Under the pieces are notes generated by a model. That model was not told the DNA's origin. It did no database searches and worked only from the letters and a program-made list of their open reading frames with translations. A stretch of DNA of 64,000 nt, from assembly GCF_014646075.1 (NCBI RefSeq), contig NZ_BMMT01000004.1, positions 204,200-268,199 on the forward strand. Direction: 5' to 3'. The position numbers and the translations under genes were made by a program. Source of the DNA: Saccharopolyspora thermophila (lineage in GTDB: Bacteria > Actinomycetota > Actinomycetes > Mycobacteriales > Pseudonocardiaceae). Positions 544 to 27,867 of this stretch are shown here, in pieces. Numbering within the stretch: position 1 is the stretch's first letter; each line of letters begins with the position of its first letter.

Positions 544-791
544 GCGTTCTTGGTGATGTAGTCCACCGCATCACCGACGGTCTTGAGGTTGGCCAGTTCG
601 TCGTCCGGGATCTTCACCCCGAACTTGTCCTCCGCCTGCACGGCGATCTCGACCATGGACAGCGAGTCGATGTCCAGGTCGTCGACGAACGACTTGTCGG
701 TGGTCACGTCGGCGGCGTCGACCCCGGCGACCTCCTCGACGATGGCGGCGAGGCCCTCGGTGATCTGCTCGTTGGTCAGCTCGTTCGACAC
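540..791 (-). CDS. acpP: Acyl carrier protein
   Basis: 83-residue carrier protein that holds growing acyl chains as thioesters on a 4'-phosphopantetheine arm. The attachment motif DIDSLSMVEI is present with the modified serine at about residue 43, and length and acidity fit AcpP. I chose GTG at 791 because an AGGAAGGA ribosome-binding site lies just upstream and the product then begins VSNELTNEQI; the longer open frame upstream is Arg/Pro-rich and not ACP-like. It lies 70 nt downstream of fabH and overlaps fabF by four bases, as in the streptomycete fabD-fabH-acpP-fabF order. Confidence 0.97.
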   Translation of the reverse strand: MSNELTNEQITEGLAAIVEEVAGVDAADVTTDKSFVDDLDIDSLSMVEIAVQAEDKFGVKIPDDELANLKTVGDAVDYITKNA

Positions 792-861
792 GGGATGGTT
801 CCTTCCTCGTTCTTGCGTTGTGCACCGAGGGCCCTCGCGGGCCCGCGGTAGTTTGGGGGGC

Positions 862-1842
862 TCAGGGGCAGACGGCGACCTGCGCCGAGTACGACAGCCC
901 GGCACCGAAGCCCACGAGCAGCATCACGTCGCCGCTGCGGATCTCCCCGGCAGCCCGCATGTGATCGATCGCCAACGGGATCGAAGCCGACGATGTGTTG
1001 CCGGAGTAGACGATGTCACGCGCGACCACGAGGTCCTCACGCGCACCCTGACTCTGCAGCTTCCGCGCGATGGCCTCGATGATCCGCAGGTTCGCCTGAT
1101 GCGGCACCAGGACGTCCACATCGGACAGCTGGAGTCCGGCGGCCTCGACCGCGCGGGCCGCCACCGGGGCGATCCGGGTGGTCGCCCACCGGAAGACCGA
1201 CTGCCCCTCCTGGTGGATGTACTTGCCGTCGCGCAGGTAGATCAGGTCCACCAGGTCGCCGGCGCTGCCCAGCACGCTCGGCCCGAGCAGCGGCTCCTCG
1301 GACGGGCCGACCACCGCCGCGCCCGCGCCGTCGGCGAAGATGATGCAGTTGGCCCGGTCCTGCCAGTCCACCCACTCCTGGAACCGCTCCGCCCCGATCA
1401 CCAGCACGTTGCGGGCCGACCCGGCGCGCACCGCATCAGAGGCCGCCGACAGCGCGTAGACGAACCCGGCGCAGGCGGCGTTGAGGTCGTAGGCGCTGCG
1501 GGCCTTGATGCCGATCTGGTCGGCCACCTGGGCCGCGGCGTTGGGGATGCCGCCCGGCATGGTGCAGGTGGCCACGATCACCTGGTCCACGTCCGACGGC
1601 GACAGGCCCGCGTCGGCGACGGCCTTGGCCCCGGCCTCCACCGCCATGCTGACCACGGTCTGGTCGTCGTCGCCGAGGCGGCGGTGCACGATGCCGACCC
1701 GCTGCCGGATCCACTCGTCGTTGGTGTCCACGATCTTGGCCAGGTCGTCGTTGGTGACGATCCGGTTGCCCTGCGTGCTGCCGAAACCCAGCAGTTTGGT
1801 TCCGGGCGGGGGCGTGGTCTGGGCAATGCGGGGACGGGTCAC
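862..1842 (-). CDS. fabH: Beta-ketoacyl-ACP synthase III (FabH)
   Basis: Initiates fatty acid synthesis by condensing an acyl-CoA starter (branched or acetyl in actinomycetes) with malonyl-ACP. The 326-residue protein carries the full KAS-III triad: Cys124 in NAACAGF, His248 in VPHQANLR and Asn282 in SGNTSSAS. The GTG start overlaps the fabD stop (GTGA), giving translational coupling. N-terminal residues 1-15 are extended and proline-rich compared with E. coli FabH, which is common in actinomycetes. Starter-unit preference cannot be read from sequence alone. Confidence 0.97.
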   Translation of the reverse strand: MTRPRIAQTTPPPGTKLLGFGSTQGNRIVTNDDLAKIVDTNDEWIRQRVGIVHRRLGDDDQTVVSMAVEAGAKAVADAGLSPSDVDQVIVATCTMPGGIPNAAAQVADQIGIKARSAYDLNAACAGFVYALSAASDAVRAGSARNVLVIGAERFQEWVDWQDRANCIIFADGAGAAVVGPSEEPLLGPSVLGSAGDLVDLIYLRDGKYIHQEGQSVFRWATTRIAPVAARAVEAAGLQLSDVDVLVPHQANLRIIEAIARKLQSQGAREDLVVARDIVYSGNTSSASIPLAIDHMRAAGEIRSGDVMLLVGFGAGLSYSAQVAVCP

Positions 1843-6677: not shown

Positions 6678-9443
6678 TCACGCCACGCCGGGGTCCGAGG
6701 TCTGCGGACCCGCGGCCTGGACGTCGTCGAGCCGGTAGCGGCGCGCGGCCTCCACCACCTGCGACCGGTCCATCTCGCCGGCGCGCGCCAGGGCGGCCAG
6801 CGTGGCGACCACGGTGGACTCGGCGTCCACCAGGAACACCCGCCGCGCGGCCGGACGCGTGTCGGAGAACCCGAAACCGTCGGTGCCCAGGCTCACCATG
6901 TCGCCGGGCACCCACGGCCGGATCAGGTCCGGCACCGCGCGCATCCAGTCGCTGACGGCCACCACCGGCCCCGGGGCCGCCGACAGCGCCCGCGTCACGT
7001 ACGGCACCCGCGGCTCCGCTCCCGGGTTCAGCAGATTGTGCCGGTCGACGGCCTCGGCCTCCCGCCGCAGCTGCGACCACGACGTCGCCGACCACACGTC
7101 GGCCTGCACGCCCCACTCCTCGGCCAGCATCCGCTGTGCCCGCAGCGCCTCCGGCATGAGCACGCCGGCGGCCAGGATCTGCGCCCTCGGCCCGGAACCG
7201 CCCGGTGCGGCCTGGTAGCGGTACAGGCCCCGCAGCAGGCCGTCGACATCCAGGTCCGCGGGCTCCGCGGGCTGCTGGTAGGGCTCGTTGTAGACGGTGA
7301 GGTAGTAGAAGACGTTCTCGGCGTCCTCCCCGTACATCCGCCGCAGGCCGTCCTTGACGATGTGCGCCACCTCGAACGCCCACGCCGGGTCGTAGGCGAT
7401 CACCGCCGGGTTGGTCGCCGCGATCAGCTGCGAGTGCCCGTCGGCGTGCTGCAGGCCCTCACCGGTCAGCGTGGTGCGCCCGGCGGTCGCGCCGAGCACG
7501 AACCCGCGGGCCATCTGGTCGGCGGCGGCCCAGAAGCTGTCGCCGGTGCGCTGGAAACCGAACATCGAGTAGAAGATGTAGACTGGGATCATCGGCTCGC
7601 CGTGTGTGGCGTAGCTGGTGCCCGCCGCGGTGAACGACGCGGCCGACCCGGCCTCGTTGATGCCCTCGTGCAGGATCTGCCCCTGCTCGCTCTCCCGGTA
7701 GGCCAGCATCAGCTGGTAGTCCACCGGCGTGTAGAGCTGGCCGAGCGGGTTGTAGATCTTCTGTGACGGGAACATCGAGTCCATGCCGAACGTGCGTGCC
7801 TCGTCCGGGATGATCGGCACGATCCGCGGCCCGATCTCCTTGTCCTTGGCCAGGTCCTTGAGCAGCCGGACGAAGGCCATCGTGGTGGCCACCTCCTGCT
7901 TGCCCGACCCACGCCGGATCACGTCGTAGACCTTGTCGCCGGGCAGCACCAGCGGCTTGGCCTTGACCCGGCGTTGCGGCAGGTAGCCGCCGAGCTGGCG
8001 GCGCCGCTCCTGCAGGTACTGGATCTCCGGCGCGTCCGGGCCGGGGTGGTAGTACGGCGGCAGGTACGGGTCCAGCTCGTCGTCGCTGATCGGGATGCGC
8101 AGGCTGTCCCGGAACAGCTTGAGGTCGTCCAGCGTCAGCTTCTTCATCTGGTGCGTGGCGTTGCGGCCCTCGAAGTGCGGGCCGAGCCCGTAGCCCTTGA
8201 TCGTCTTGGCCAGGATGACGGTGGGCTGGCCGTGGTGCTCGGTGGCCGCCTTGTAGGCCGCGTAGATCTTGCGGTAGTCGTGCCCGCCGCGGCGCAGGCC
8301 CCAGATCTGGTCGTCGGTGAGGTGCCGGACCATCTCCTTGGTGCGCGGGTCGCGGCCGAAGAAGTGCTCCCGGACGAAGGCACCGTCGTTGGCCTTGTAG
8401 GTCTGGTAGTCGCCGTCCGGGGTGGTGTTCATCAGGTTCACCAGGGCGCCGTCGCGGTCGGCGTGCAGCAGCGCGTCCCACTCGCGACCCCAGATCACCT
8501 TGATCACGTTCCACCCGGCGCCGCGGAAGAACGCCTCCAGCTCCTGGATGATCTTGCCGTTGCCGCGCACCGGGCCGTCCAGCTGCTGCAGGTTGCAGTT
8601 GACCACGAAGGTGAGGTTGTCCAGGCCCTCGTTGGCGGCCACGTGCAGCAGGCCGCGCGACTCGGGCTCGTTCATCTCGCCGTCGCCCAGGAACGCCCAC
8701 ACGCGCTGCTGGCTGGTGTCCTTGATGCCGCGGTCGTGCAGGTAGCGGTTGAAGCGGGCCTGGAAGATCGCGTTCATCGGGCCCAGCCCCATGGACACGG
8801 TGGGGAACTCCCAGAAGTCCGGCATCAGCCGCGGGTGCGGGTAGGACGGCAGCCCGCCGCCCGGCCCGGCGTGCGAGTACTCCTGGCGGAACCCGTCGAG
8901 CTGGTCGGCGGTCAGCCGGCCCTCCAGGAACGCGCGGGCGTAGACGCCGGGGGAGGCGTGGCCCTGGATGTAGAGGTGGTCACCCCCGCCCGGGTGGTCC
9001 TTGCCGCGGAAGAACCAGTTGAAGCCGACCTCGTAGAGGCTGGCCGAGGAGGCGAACGAGGAGATGTGGCCGCCCACGCCGACGCCGGGGCGCTGCGCGC
9101 GGTGCACCATCATCGCGGCGTTCCACCGCATCCAGGCCCGGTACCGGCGCTCGGTCTCCTCGTCGCCGGGGAACCACGGCTCCTGCTCGGTGGGGATGGT
9201 GTTGACGTAGTCCGTGCTGGTCAGCGACGGGACGCCGACGCCGCTCTCGCGGGCCCGCTGCAGCAGCCGCAGCATCAGGTACCGCGCCCGCTGCTGCCCG
9301 TTGGCCGCCAGCACCGAGTCGAAGGACTGCAACCACTCCTCGGTCTCCTGCGGATCGATGTCCGGCAGGTGGGAGGCGAGACCGTCCCGGATGACCCGCA
9401 CCCGCTGGGTGGGGACGGCGGTGTCGTTGTTGAGCGGGGACAA
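6678..9443 (-). CDS. aceE: Pyruvate dehydrogenase E1 component, homodimeric type (AceE)
   Basis: 921-residue thiamine-diphosphate enzyme that decarboxylates pyruvate for transfer to the lipoyl E2 of the PDH complex. The TPP motif runs from [10 protein letters not shown] to [16 protein letters not shown], and the transketolase-like segment [11 protein letters not shown] lies in the second half. I chose TTG at 9443, because GAGGAG sits five bases upstream and the product begins [17 protein letters not shown]; the frame upstream is unlike the family. Single gene facing divergently from the DUF3052 gene. Single-chain AceE is normal in actinobacteria. Confidence 0.95.
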
Positions 9444-10989: not shown

Positions 10990-11064
10990 GGGCGCATAGC
11001 TCAGTGGAAGAGCACCTGCCTTACAAGCAGGGGGTCGCTGGTTCGAACCCAGCTGCGCCCACCA
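10990..11064 (+). tRNA. tRNA-Val (anticodon UAC), CCA encoded
   Basis: Cloverleaf reads clearly. The acceptor stem GGGCGCA at 10990-10996 pairs with TGCGCCC ending at 11060, then discriminator A and genomic CCA at 11062-11064. The anticodon stem CCTGC/GCAGG encloses CTTACAA, giving anticodon UAC. The T arm has GGTTCGAACCC. The tRNA marks the start of the accessory stretch that follows. Confidence 0.97.
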
Positions 11065-22793: not shown

Positions 22794-24329
22794 TCACATG
22801 ACGGTGCCGATGTGCCACGGGACGAACTCCTCCTCGCCGTAGCCGAGGTCCTCGCTCTTGGTGTGCTCGCCGGAGGCCACCCGCAGGATCTGCTGGAAGA
22901 TCTCCTCGCCGAGCGCCTCGACGGTGGTCTCCCCGTCGATGATCCGGCCGCAGTTGACGTCCATGTCCTCGCTCATGTGCTCATACAGCGGGGTGTTGGT
23001 GGCCAGCTTCAGGCTCGGGACCGGGGCGCAGCCGAAGGCCGAGCCGCGCCCGGTGGTGAAGCAGACGACGTTGGCGCCGCCCGCGACGATGCCGGTCACC
23101 GACACCGGGTCGTAGCCGGGTGTGTCCATGAAGACGAAACCCCTGCTGGTGATCGGTGCGGCGTAGTCGACGACGTCGCGCAGCGCGGTGGTGCCGCCCT
23201 TGGCGACCGCGCCCAGCGACTTCTCCAGGATCGTGGTCAGCCCACCGGCCTTGTTGCCCGGCGACGGGTTGTTGTCCATCGAACCGCCGTTCCTGGCCGT
23301 GTAGTCCTGCCACCAGGCGATCTTGGCCAGCAGCTTCTCGCCGACCTCGCGGCTGGCGGCGCGGCGCACCAGCATGTGCTCGGCGCCGTAGATCTCGGGC
23401 GTCTCGCCGACGATGCCGGTGCCGCCGTGGGCGACGAGCCGGTCCACCGCCGCGCCCAGCGCGGGGTTGGCGGTGATGCCGGAGTAGGAGTCGGAGCCGC
23501 CGCAGTTGGTGCCCAGCACGAGTTTGCTGGCGGGCACCGTGCTGCGCCGCGCCGCATCGACGTCGGGCAGCAGTTCGGTGAGCCGGGCGACGCCCTCCCG
23601 GACGGTTCTGGTGGTGCCGCCGAGTTCCTGGATGGTGGCGGTGGTGATCGGCAGGTCCTCACGCAGGTCGACGTCCTGGGTGATCCTGACGATCTGGTTG
23701 TCCTCGCAGCCGAGGCCCAGGACGAGGAAACCGGCGAAGTTGGGGTGCGTGAGGTAGCCGCGCATCACCCGGCGCAGTACGTCGATGCCCTCGCCGTCGG
23801 GCGCCATGCCGCAGCCGGTGCCGTGGGTCAGCGCGACCACGCCGTCGACGTTCGGGAAGTCGTCCAGCACGCCGGAGAAGCGCATCTGCTGGGCGATGAG
23901 TTTCGCCGCGGTCGCCGAGCAGTTGACGCTGGTGAGCACGCCGAGGTAGTTGCGGGTGCCGACCTTGCCGTCGGAGCGCACGTAGCCCTCGAAGGTGGCG
24001 CGCTGGTCTTCCGGCAGCAGGTGCTCCGGCTGGGCGTCGACGGAGAACTCGTAGGCCCGCTCGAACTCCCGGTACTCCAGGTTGTGCAGGTGGACGTGCT
24101 CGCCGCCGGCGATGTCGCGTCCGGCGAACCCGATCACCTGGCCGTAGCGGCGCACCTCGCTGCCCGCGGCGATGTCGTGCACCGCGACCTTGTGCCCGCG
24201 TGGGACGTCGCCGCGCAGCACCACCGCGGCGGTGCCGACCCGTGCTTCGGTTCCCGCGCTCAGGTCCGCGCCGGCGATGGCGACGTCGTCCTCGTCGCGC
24301 AGGTGGATGAGGGTCGGGCTGTTCGACAT
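22794..24329 (-). CDS. UxaA-family (altronate/galactarate-type) dehydratase
   Basis: 511 residues. N-terminal SAF domain (about 1-95) followed by the UxaA dehydratase domain with GTRNYLGVLTSVNCSATA, HGTGCGMAPDGEGID, GLGCEDNQI, GTNCGGSDSYSGITANPALG and GRGSAFGCAPVPSLKLATN. Cysteines in these motifs likely bind iron. Substrate is a sugar acid; altronate and galactarate types cannot be told apart by eye. The ATG at 24329 gives the usual length. Single gene with no sugar-acid neighbours, which is unusual for uxaA. Confidence 0.87.
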   Translation of the reverse strand: MSNSPTLIHLRDEDDVAIAGADLSAGTEARVGTAAVVLRGDVPRGHKVAVHDIAAGSEVRRYGQVIGFAGRDIAGGEHVHLHNLEYREFERAYEFSVDAQPEHLLPEDQRATFEGYVRSDGKVGTRNYLGVLTSVNCSATAAKLIAQQMRFSGVLDDFPNVDGVVALTHGTGCGMAPDGEGIDVLRRVMRGYLTHPNFAGFLVLGLGCEDNQIVRITQDVDLREDLPITTATIQELGGTTRTVREGVARLTELLPDVDAARRSTVPASKLVLGTNCGGSDSYSGITANPALGAAVDRLVAHGGTGIVGETPEIYGAEHMLVRRAASREVGEKLLAKIAWWQDYTARNGGSMDNNPSPGNKAGGLTTILEKSLGAVAKGGTTALRDVVDYAAPITSRGFVFMDTPGYDPVSVTGIVAGGANVVCFTTGRGSAFGCAPVPSLKLATNTPLYEHMSEDMDVNCGRIIDGETTVEALGEEIFQQILRVASGEHTKSEDLGYGEEEFVPWHIGTVM

Positions 24330-24673
24330 GCCTGCTCCGTGTCTGATATTTCGAACGTTGGTTGATATACCGTATTCGCGCTGCTCGTCGACTGTCAACG
24401 ACAGCCGTGGGGCGATGCTGCCGGACGCGTCCGCTGCCGCGAGGCCCTGGTGGGGTGGGGTGTTCCCCACCCCGAGGCGGGGGAATTCCCGTCCGAAATT
24501 CTTCGGGTTCTGCGTCGCTTTTCGGCGGGTTCGCACCATCGGAGCGGGATGCCTCGGTCCGCAAACTAGATGCATCGGCATGAACGGAGCCGACGGAATC
24601 CAGAAGCCAAACCCACAGCTGTCAGGCCGCGGACACCAGGGCCGGGTGGGCAGCACCGGAAAGGAAGAAATCC
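24330..24673. other. Divergent intergenic region
   Basis: AT-rich patch at 24338-24378 next to the dehydratase start: two TGATAT words around the palindrome AACGTT, and TATATC that could be a -10 box on the minus strand. The rest (24400-24660) leads to the repeat protein. GGAAAGGAAG at 24657-24666 is its ribosome-binding site. No gene seen. Confidence 0.5.
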
Positions 24674-25390
24674 ATGAAGAAGACGACGAAGGCTATTGGT
24701 ATCGCAGCTGCGATCGCTGCGGGTGCTCTTGCTCCGAGCACCGCTTTCGCCGCCACCCCGGCTCCCTCCGCGGTCGTGCACATGGCCGAGGACGACAACG
24801 TCAATGTGAACCAGTCGAACAACAATTCCGGTAACGCCAATGGTGGTTCGATCAGGCAGGAGAACAACAACTCGGGCAATGCTAACGGTGGTTCGATCAC
24901 CCAGAAGAACAACAACAAGGGCAACGCTAACGGTGGTTCGATCACCCAGAAGAACAACAACTCGGGCAATGCCAATGGTGGTGTGATCAAGCAGGGGAAC
25001 AACAACTCCGGTAATGCCAATGGTGGGGCGATCAAGCAGGAGAACAACAACTCGGGTAACGCCAATGGTGGTGTGATCAGGCAGGAGAACAACAACTCGG
25101 GTAACGCCAATGGTGGTGTGATCAAGCAGGGGAACAACAACTCCGGTAATGCCAATGGTGGGGCGATCAAGCAGGAGAACAACAACAAGGGCAACGCCAA
25201 TGGTGGTTCGATCAGGCAGGAGAACAACAACTCGGGCAACGCCAACGGTGGTTCGATCAAGCAGCACAACAACAACGCGGGCCATGTCAAGCACCACGCG
25301 CCCGCCTGGGTCCCGCACTGGGTCCCGAGCTGGGTCCCGCCGTTCTGGAACTGGGTGCCGCCGTTCTGGCACTGGGGCTATTGGTTCTGA
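24674..25390 (+). CDS. Secreted Asn/Gly-rich tandem-repeat protein with aromatic C-terminus
   Basis: 238 residues in four parts. A Sec signal peptide covers 1-26 (MKKTTKAIGIAAAIAAGALA, cleavage after AFA). A short linker follows (27-48). Ten exact-length 15-residue repeats occupy 49-198, consensus NNNSGNANGGxIxQx, where x varies among S/V/A, K/R/T and E/K/G. The C-terminal 30 residues have Trp-Val-Pro and Trp-His motifs (WVPHWVPSWVPPFWNW) ending WGYWF. The Gln/Asn pattern at fixed spacing recalls curlin-type beta-solenoid amyloid repeats. No membrane anchor or LPXTG. Strong terminator follows. Function unknown; a surface fibre or matrix protein is inference. Confidence 0.85.
   Translation: MKKTTKAIGIAAAIAAGALAPSTAFAATPAPSAVVHMAEDDNVNVNQSNNNSGNANGGSIRQENNNSGNANGGSITQKNNNKGNANGGSITQKNNNSGNANGGVIKQGNNNSGNANGGAIKQENNNSGNANGGVIRQENNNSGNANGGVIKQGNNNSGNANGGAIKQENNNKGNANGGSIRQENNNSGNANGGSIKQHNNNAGHVKHHAPAWVPHWVPSWVPPFWNWVPPFWHWGYWF
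24818..25267 (+). repeat. Ten tandem 45-bp repeats
   Basis: In-frame coding repeats of 45 bp. Units 4-5 and units 7-8 are nearly identical in DNA, 135 bp apart, showing recent internal duplication of three units. Repeat number could change without breaking the frame. Confidence 0.95.
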
Positions 25391-25427
25391 TGCCCTGATC
25401 GGCACAACCGAACAACAGATCCCAGAG

Positions 25428-25465
25428 GGGGTCGGGGCGGGCGTCGAGGCGCCCGCCCCGACCCC
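25428..25465 (+). terminator. Strong terminator hairpin after repeat protein
   Basis: Perfect 16-bp stem (25428-25443 with 25450-25465) and a 6-nt loop TCGAGG, 38 bp past the stop. The most stable hairpin in the window by length. Confidence 0.85.
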
Positions 25466-26355: not shown

Positions 26356-26409
26356 TGTCGAAGTTTCAGGATGGTGGGACGACGGCACCCACTTGGAAGG
26401 AGAACGGCC

Positions 26410-26931
26410 ATGTCCGAGCGGGCCCTGCGGTTGGGCGTCATCGTCGGAAGCACCCGGGAGGGGCGCTACGGCCGGACGGTGGCCGACTGGTTCGCCGACC
26501 TCGCCCGCCAGCACCCCGAGCTGGACGTCGACGTCATCGACCTGGCCGAGTCCAGGCTGCCGCCGGTGCACCCGGCGCAGGACACACCACCGCTGCGAGA
26601 GTTCCGCGACCGGCTGGCCGCGGCCGACGTGTTCGCGGTGATCACCCCGGAGTACAACCACGGCTACCCGGCCTCGCTGAAGTTCGCCATCGACTCGGCC
26701 TACCAGGAGTGGCACACCAAGCCGGTCGGATTCGTCTGCTACGGCGGCATTTCCGGCGGACTGCGCGCGGTGGAGCAGCTGCGCCAGGTCTTCGCCGAAC
26801 TGCACGCCGTGACCGTGCGCGACACGGTCAGCTTCCACGGCGTGCACGAGTGCTTCGACGAGACCGGTATTCCGAAGGACAATGCGGTCCCGGCCGCGGC
26901 CAAGGTGCTGCTCGACCAGCTCGTGTGGTAG
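26410..26931 (+). CDS. NADPH-dependent FMN reductase / flavodoxin-fold oxidoreductase
   Basis: 173 residues with the FMN_red flavodoxin-like fold. The phosphate loop is GVIVGSTREGRYGRTVADW near the N-terminus, and the flavin-binding segment is ITPEYNHGYPASLKFAID, characteristic of the azoreductase/chromate-reductase subgroup. The ATG at 26410 has AAGGAG about 8 bases upstream; the frame extends farther but without a site. It follows nat closely. Quinone or azo reduction is inferred from family. Confidence 0.88.
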   Translation: MSERALRLGVIVGSTREGRYGRTVADWFADLARQHPELDVDVIDLAESRLPPVHPAQDTPPLREFRDRLAAADVFAVITPEYNHGYPASLKFAIDSAYQEWHTKPVGFVCYGGISGGLRAVEQLRQVFAELHAVTVRDTVSFHGVHECFDETGIPKDNAVPAAAKVLLDQLVW

Positions 26932-27021: not shown

Positions 27022-27867
27022 ATGAGCGACCGTCGCCTGCTGCTGGTGCACGCCCACCCCGATGACGAGTCCACGGCCACCGGGGCCACCATGGCCCGTT
27101 ACTGCGCGGAGGGGGCCGCGGTGTCGTTGGTGACCTGCACCAGCGGCGAACTCGGCGAGGTCGTCGCCGACGACCTCGCGCACCTGCGCGGGAACCCGGA
27201 CGCGCTGGGCGAGCACCGGCGCCAGGAGATCCGCGAGGCGCTGGCCGAGCTGGGCGACGTCCGACACCACTGGCTGGGCGGCCCGGGCCGCTGGCGGGAC
27301 AGCGGCATGGCGGGGGAGGCGTCCAACGGTGCGGACGGCGCGTTCGCGGCCGCGGACCCGGTGGAGGTGACCCGCGCGATGGTGGCGGTGCTGCGGGCGG
27401 AACGACCACAGGTCGTGGTGACCTACGACGAGTTCGGCGGCTACGGCCACCCCGACCACATCGCCGCGCACCGCGCGGTCATGACGTCGCTGGACCCGGC
27501 GGCCGACCCGGACTACGCACCGGAGCTGGGCGAGCCGTGGCAGGTGGCGAAGGTGTACTGGACAGCCCTGCCGCGCTCGATCCTCAAGCAGGTCGAGGAG
27601 GCCGGGGTCGAGGGCTTCGAGCCGTACACGGTGCCGGACCAGGAGCTGACCGCGGTGCTGGACGGCCGCGCCTTCCACGCGGCCAAGCTGCGCGCGCTGC
27701 GGCGCCACCGCAGCCAGGTGAACCTGGACGACGGCGGGTTCTTCGCCTCGATCACGGCGCGCCCGGAGTTCGCCATCGAGCACTACCTGCTGGTCCGCGG
27801 CGACCGCGGCCCCGGTTCCGGCCCCTACGACTGGGAGTCGGACCTCTTCGCCGGCCTGGACGGCTGA
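27022..27867 (+). CDS. mshB: MshB: GlcNAc-inositol deacetylase of mycothiol synthesis
   Basis: 281 residues, LmbE/PIG-L family. Zinc-site motifs are AHPDDES (His12, Asp15) and GGYGHPDHIAAH (His143/His146). GGPGRWRDSGMAG matches MshB rather than the conjugate amidase Mca. It removes the acetyl group from GlcNAc-Ins to give GlcN-Ins, the third step to mycothiol. Its presence supports an actinomycete host. Single gene. Confidence 0.9.
   Translation: MSDRRLLLVHAHPDDESTATGATMARYCAEGAAVSLVTCTSGELGEVVADDLAHLRGNPDALGEHRRQEIREALAELGDVRHHWLGGPGRWRDSGMAGEASNGADGAFAAADPVEVTRAMVAVLRAERPQVVVTYDEFGGYGHPDHIAAHRAVMTSLDPAADPDYAPELGEPWQVAKVYWTALPRSILKQVEEAGVEGFEPYTVPDQELTAVLDGRAFHAAKLRALRRHRSQVNLDDGGFFASITARPEFAIEHYLLVRGDRGPGSGPYDWESDLFAGLDG

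Follow-up and report, generated by a model that had tools for sequence, protein, structure and literature searches.

A secreted 15-residue repeat protein of Saccharopolyspora thermophila with a curli-type kernel, a candidate self-assembling surface fibre

A single gene of Saccharopolyspora thermophila (24674-25390, plus strand) encodes a Sec-secreted protein in which each of ten tandem repeats holds a seven-residue kernel similar to that of the curli subunits. Coordinates refer to the window, by which we mean the whole stretch of 64,000 nucleotides analysed. Judged from its sequence, this protein is a good candidate for a self-assembling surface fibre. Our main reading, to which we assign a probability of about 45%, is that the protein is secreted, folds as a curli-like beta-solenoid, is held non-covalently and probably self-assembles. 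The beta-solenoid fold may be proposed with fair confidence, polymerisation less firmly than the fold, and a role for the tail and a location on the cell only weakly.

The repeat gene and its surroundings

The gene is one open reading frame of 238 residues with an ATG start. The initial annotation had described a signal peptide, ten repeats of 15 residues and an aromatic tail, and all three are confirmed by the reading frame, TRF, and column and residue counts. The features of the gene and its neighbourhood are as follows.

22794-24329, minus strand: galactarate/altronate dehydratase ('uxaA'), by Pfam
24456-24667, plus strand: own upstream (promoter) region, best-kept blocks CGCACCATCG (24532-24541) and GCATCGGC (24572-24579), from alignment with both homologues
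24662-24667, plus strand: Shine-Dalgarno-like AGGAAG, from the sequence
24674-24751, plus strand: Sec-type signal peptide, residues 1-26, from the sequence (cleavage between MKKTTKAIGIAAAIAAGALAPSTAFA and A, placed by eye)
24752-24817, plus strand: mature N-terminal lead-in, residues 27-48, last residues DNVNVNQS, from the sequence
24818-25267, plus strand: ten 15-residue repeats NNN[SK]GNANGG[SVA]I[KRT]Q[EKGH], kernel N-G-G-x-I-x-Q in each, by TRF and column count
25268-25387, plus strand: eleventh repeat start, His-containing link and Trp/Pro-rich tail, residues 199-238, final Phe, from the sequence
25403-25418, plus strand: 3' element CRCAACYGAACAACMG directly past the stop codon, in all three loci, from flank alignment
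25428-25465, plus strand: 17-bp hairpin without a T-run, from a fold of the 130 bases past the stop codon
25516-26355, plus strand: arylamine-type N-acetyltransferase (Acetyltransf_2), by Pfam
26371-26931, plus strand: FMN reductase (FMN_red), by Pfam
27022-27867, plus strand: PIG-L deacetylase, by Pfam

The signal peptide runs from a basic start through a hydrophobic run to AFA before the cut and A after it. Asn makes up 27% of the mature protein (57/212), and the last 30 residues contain, by hand count, eight Trp, seven Pro, four Val, three Phe and two His, with neither Lys nor Arg. A regular-expression search found no lipobox, Cys or LPxTG-like motif in the protein, and the sortase motif L[PA].T[GAN] is absent from it and from its two homologues described below. 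The gene is present in a single copy in its own genome (E <= 1). Two minus-strand reading frames, 24566-25405 and 24622-25290, overlap it and are read as a mirror of the repeat, since the plus-strand protein has homologues.

The repeats are spaced by exactly 15 residues over residues 49-198 (n=10), after which a further start, NNNAGH, merges into the tail. In the DNA, TRF reports a 45-bp period with 10.4 copies (score 610) and a 135-bp period (score 682). Eleven of the 15 columns are invariant in 10/10 repeats, variation being confined to columns 4 (S/K), 11 (S/V/A), 13 (K/R/T) and 15 (E/K/G/H). Across all 45 repeat pairs, pS is 0.321 and pN 0.105, a ratio of 0.33 (0.59 and 0.44 in the two homologous genes, G015 and G013). 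Because synonymous differences among the repeats exceed amino-acid-changing ones, the comparison speaks for selection on the protein repeat of this gene rather than fresh DNA duplication.

Conservation extends into the flanks. The 230 bp upstream align pairwise among all three loci, with 0, 2 and 0 of 2000 Markov shuffles reaching the observed scores, and this likeness includes the non-syntenic G013 locus. CCATCG and GCATCGGC are kept about 95-145 bp before the start codon (window 24444-24673 and the upstream regions of L002 and L003), and the conserved blocks are a possible shared promoter or regulator site. No known RNA scored above the gathering score upstream of the gene; elsewhere in the window, on the plus strand, there are an FMN riboswitch (RF00050, 5754-5882, 93.7 bits), a class A RNase P RNA (RF00010, 53328-53725, 285 bits) and a tRNA (10990-11061). 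The first 100 bp downstream align less strongly than the upstream region (7, 22 and 0 of 2000 shuffles for the three pairs), and the presence of the 3' element in the three loci is by construction, its pattern having been built from them. Hairpins also lie 3' of the G015 gene and, less perfect, of the G013 gene. The hairpin at 25428-25465 is a possible transcription terminator, and the gene is thus perhaps monocistronic. None of the four Pfam-named neighbours is partner-like, and no csg-like neighbour was seen by eye among the reading frames at 20-31 kb of the window.

Homologues within the genus

Three of 22 genomes of the genus match the protein at E <= 0.1: its own, G015 (5.6e-8) and G013 (1.1e-7). 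The latter two, both congeneric, are the genuine relatives found. The G015 gene occupies the same site, divergent from uxaA, and encodes eleven 20-residue repeats, and the G013 gene lies at another locus and encodes five 14-residue repeats with a further kernel ahead of them. Signal peptide, upstream region, 3' element with hairpin, and kernel are common to all three genes, and the rest of the repeat has been exchanged. The signal peptide of the window protein is like that of G015 and of G013 (0/2000 shuffles each). The window and G015 tails are related (13/2000 shuffles), and the G013 tail, of about seven residues, shows no measurable kinship to the window or G015 tail (1109 and 265 of 2000); all three proteins nevertheless end in W-[FY].

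At the corresponding site of two further genomes, G008 and G018, uxaA and acetyltransferase matches lie 153 and 293 bp apart with no repeat gene between them, and neither genome matches the protein anywhere (E <= 0.1). The uxaA genes of the window genome, G015, G008 and G018 are 89-99% identical in DNA, against 73-77% to four other copies, so presence of the repeat gene varies within one close group. In G015, an apparent C-terminal remnant of the acetyltransferase (L055, about 8091-8363, minus strand; best of three frames, score 51, 0/1000 shuffles) separates the repeat gene from that for the FMN reductase. Because this remnant follows the G015 gene, the order uxaA, repeat gene, acetyltransferase is probably common to G015 and the window. 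With so few genomes, gain and loss of the repeat gene are indistinguishable.

Wider searches returned matches to the window protein in at least 12/390 genomes of the family and at least 6/394 of the class (E <= 0.001), to a three-row profile in at least 3/397 genomes of the order, and to the G015 protein in at least 4/297 of the family. These counts are lower bounds, as at most seven or eight candidates were scored per genome, and members with other repeats escape such searches: the G015 protein itself misses the window protein at E 0.001. Each locus was read, and all matches other than the three genes were judged to be chance or unrelated repeats, those outside the genus being frames of low complexity, translated CRISPR arrays or repeat proteins of other kinds (rejected loci: L004, L005, L008, L009, L010, L011, L050, L051, L072, L073, L074, L075, L076, L077, L078, L079, L080-L088). 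Sixteen rejected look-alike loci from outside the genus hold 0 or 1 kernel each. A scan of named genomes flagged 314 stretches by pattern; a single locus was confirmed, that of a Cohnella protein sharing the signal peptide only. Eleven signal-peptide-only matches (E 0.015 to 1) have 0-2 kernels in frame, none tandem among the matches listed. The plasmids, phages and viral contigs searched yielded no relative.

Some of the rejected loci merit a remark of their own. L008, L010 and L011, all of genome G276, are regular DNA repeats with unrelated spacers, by eye CRISPR arrays, and such arrays mimic repeat proteins in six-frame searches. L009 (frame about 598-1824, plus strand; genome G155, of another genus of the family) has G-x-G-D-V repeats resembling by eye those of the putative adhesin 3pet, and is the best but one family match of the G015 protein outside the genus (E 3e-4). 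L085 presumably resembles a pentapeptide-type PPE protein.

A curli-type kernel outside the known families

The repeats of curli subunits are built on a kernel N-$-psi1-$-psi2-$-Q, in which $ denotes outward-facing residues (PMC10192328, in excerpt). In the window protein N-G-G-x-I-x-Q occurs in 10/10 repeats; G013 has N-N-A-x-[VI]-x-Q six times; and G015 has 22 kernels, either G-x-G-x-[IV]-x-Q or G-x-A-x-V-x-Q in type, with N first in 1 and G first in 21. Matches to the pattern [NG]x[AIVLSTG]x[IVLA]xQ number 10, 22 and 6 in the mature window, G015 and G013 proteins, where shuffling gives means of 0.4, 0.67 and 0.15. When the residues of each unit are permuted, the kernel number is reached in 4.0% of cases for the window, 0.20% for G015 and 3.2% for G013; the order of residues inside the repeat unit matters. 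The counts and the permutation figures are descriptive, the pattern having been relaxed after the sequences were seen (Gly admitted in place 1; aliphatics only at psi2). As background, 6 of 1091 stop-to-stop frames of 60 or more residues in the window and four other stretches (123,904 bases) hold three or more kernels; three of them are the window, G015 and G013 genes (10, 22 and 6), and each of the remaining three has exactly 3. Beyond the kernel, the three repeat units have almost nothing in common. Near-total exchange of the repeat among three homologous genes that keep a curli-type kernel would suggest that selection sees the kernel, not the repeat.

The variability of the columns bears on how such a unit might fold. 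In the window protein, variable columns 11 and 13 fall at outward kernel places and column 15 just beyond, the in/out pattern being limited to columns 11-15; since psi1 is Gly, a thin core is expected. In the G015 protein, even columns have a mean entropy of 0.16 bits against 1.66 for odd columns (4 of 200,000 permutations, computed on ten repeats without the eleventh, which merges into the tail), and a 14-column version of the test gives 49 of 100,000. As read from the sequence, this alternation over all 20 residues is a signature of a beta-strand that is independent of AlphaFold, and leads one to expect a pleated, stacked strand, not disorder.

The comparison with curlin CsgA made in the initial annotation thus holds for the kernel, present in 10/10 repeats and in two homologues, and for the alternation in G015, and fails for the curlin profile and the Gln spacing. 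Like CsgA and CsgB, these are Sec-secreted repeat proteins with a similar kernel and predicted beta structure at the repeat spacing. A published degenerate curlin pattern, ..[AIVLSTG].[IVLQTA].Q.G, occurs at 11 places in G015 (shuffled mean 0.81), but nowhere in the window or G013 protein, and the kernel with N first is found 10 times in the window protein and 6 times in G013 but only once in G015. Unlike curli, two of the three proteins have one kernel per repeat, and a Trp-rich tail is present. Curlin repeats span 23 +/- 5 residues (PMC10192328, in excerpt), against 14, 15 or 20 here. The Curlin_rpt profile (PF07012) has no match up to E 10 in the window, G015 or G013 proteins, and is over cut-off in 0/22 genomes of the genus, two of which match at E 0.63 and 0.83; among 14 named control genomes three match, including E. 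coli, one of them over cut-off. QX10Q spacing is found 0, 1 and 0 times (window, G015, G013) against shuffled means of 0.46, 2.14 and 0.26. Profile, spacing and repeat length together lead us to reject curlin membership for the window protein.

Chaplins and rodlins are likewise small, secreted actinobacterial surface proteins (PMC7766987, in excerpt). The chaplin domain PF03777 is absent from the window protein and has 0 matches in its genome, which excludes a chaplin; it is found in 14/22 genomes of the genus at E <= 0.01 (8 above cut-off) and in 0/14 named control genomes. The Pfam scan gave no rodlin match to the window protein. Filing the protein as a curlin or chaplin is not warranted, though it would be curli-like in its working if our reading is right.

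Searches of Pfam, NCBIfam and PHROGs returned nothing over cut-off or at E < 0.01 for the three proteins, the nearest matches being those of G013 with PF22807 (E 0.017) and phrog_24159 (E 0.019). The best phmmer matches of the window protein among PDB sequences (E 0.022, 0.05, 0.24 and 0.82) are headed by 4yfo and 5dra, which we take to be designed pentapeptide-repeat-like proteins. Fifteen is three fives, but the window protein lacks a Leu/Phe centre every five residues. Pfam shows no pentapeptide match at E 10 or below, and the best PDB match stands at only E 0.022; this assignment was rejected. A profile of the window repeats had no match to PDB sequences up to E 1. The absence of a named family, as first annotated, is borne out in the Pfam, NCBIfam, PHROG and PDB searches, and such a protein is undescribed among the matches listed from open-licence literature on actinobacterial or Gram-positive curli, chaplins and rodlins, Asn-rich repeats and Trp-rich tails. 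Similarity to a handful of prototypes, CsgA among them, is how most of the known bacterial amyloids came to light (PMC13119156, in excerpt); the present genes would suggest that curli-like proteins exist beyond the reach of the curlin profile.

Structural models and competing readings

AF2 models were made for the window and G015 proteins from single sequences. The window protein was modelled with two short strands per 15 residues (pLDDT 57.6, pTM 0.40), and the G015 protein with eleven strand segments at 20-residue spacing (pLDDT 78.1, pTM 0.71) in one model out of five, the other four having a mean pLDDT of 41-54. AF2 has been reported to build confident yet unrealistic solenoids from random perfect repeats, and turned 32/78 such sequences into beta-solenoids (PMC11795689, in excerpt); because of this bias the models are given little weight beside the column pattern. 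Such an artefact is less likely for G015, whose repeats are not identical to one another and whose conserved even columns are all uncharged. Foldseek found no PDB match at E <= 0.001 for either model. At the top of the lists for the two models stand a self-associating protein (E 1.8) and SufB-SufC-SufD (E 0.084); the G015 list includes the curli subunit 8c50 (E 1.9) and, at rank 5, the Pseudomonas functional amyloid FapC (9u4u; E 0.20, probability 0.03, not significant). An AlphaFold model had been proposed at the outset as a check for a beta-solenoid, which in curlins is left-handed with two sheets: it returned beta structure at the repeat spacing, though at a pLDDT of 57.6 and without a significant PDB match.

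In the curli-like reading, a single-gene cassette would supply a repeat protein secreted by Sec, a step that the sequence itself supports. Each repeat would contribute a single short N-G-G-x-I-x-Q strand. Its Asn, small residue, Ile and Gln would face the interior and line up in ladders, with variable columns 11, 13 and 15 outward and the NNNSGNA stretch as a turn. Outside the cell, these strands would pile up around a thin core of Gly, Ala, Ile and Val with ladders of Asn and Gln, and the open strand edges at both ends could allow subunits to join end to end into extracellular fibres. Given that the protein lacks a sorting motif, a lipobox and a clear membrane helix, its Trp/Pro/His-rich tail would be the best candidate for a non-covalent attachment to membrane, wall or a partner, or else for a nucleating patch. 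A bolder extension, which we regard as tentative and rather doubtful, is that of a stand-alone curli-kernel amyloid in an actinobacterial genus, devoid of recognisable curlin repeats and with fixed ends (upstream region, signal peptide and 3' element), in which the repeat unit is exchanged (14, 15 or 20 residues) under selection for the kernel only and the Trp-rich tail replaces a dedicated nucleator. The three natural versions form a ready-made set for asking what residues are required for assembly and whether proteins with different repeats would assemble together.

The same kernel and alternation would also fit a secreted beta-solenoid that does not polymerise, such as a rod-like adhesin, a spacer or a ligand- or ice-binding surface with the tail as a cap, a reading we consider unlikely but deserving of weight. 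The G015 repeats match the putative adhesin 3pet by phmmer (E 2e-6), both being rich in G-x-G-D/N-[VI], and L009 has a similar look. This match, however, is one of low-complexity repeats that falls to E 0.5 with the repeat profile, its alignment lacks the kernel Gln series, and G015 has no Pfam match over cut-off. Ice-binding solenoids carry rows of Thr, which the T-A-T of 7/11 G015 repeats recalls, but the window and G013 repeats are without it. Near-identical, open-ended repeats would moreover favour stacking.

About equally unlikely is a disordered Asn/Gly-rich matrix or wall protein, for which the solenoid would be an AF2 artefact and the aromatic tail the binding part. The low AF2 confidence for the window protein, the repeat bias of the program and the Asn content fit this account, and Actinoplanes offers a putatively disordered, sortase-anchored spore wall protein, SspA (PMC13293333, in excerpt). 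Against it stand the alternation in G015, the invariant Ile and Gln, and a kernel kept amid exchange of nearly all else, which one would not anticipate in a disordered protein.

It is improbable that the repeat scaffold serves to present or store a tail, rich in Trp and Pro, that is membrane-active or antimicrobial. Indolicidin is a Trp/Pro-rich peptide that the tail resembles in its eight Trp and seven Pro, and in each of the three proteins the final residue is aromatic and follows a Trp, but the last 30 residues are without Lys or Arg, the G013 tail is very short, and no immunity or processing gene was seen by eye among the neighbours. Least probable of all is a young, largely non-adaptive low-complexity frame growing by slippage, which would fit the patchy presence in 3/22 genomes, the turnover of repeats and a G+C of 57.2% against 71.9% for the whole window, but sits poorly with the repeat pN/pS of 0.33 and with the signal peptide, upstream region and 3' element kept at three loci. 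The GC3 of the gene is 78.2%, against 91-96% in the four neighbouring genes, and part of its low G+C and GC3 follows from its many Asn and Gly codons.
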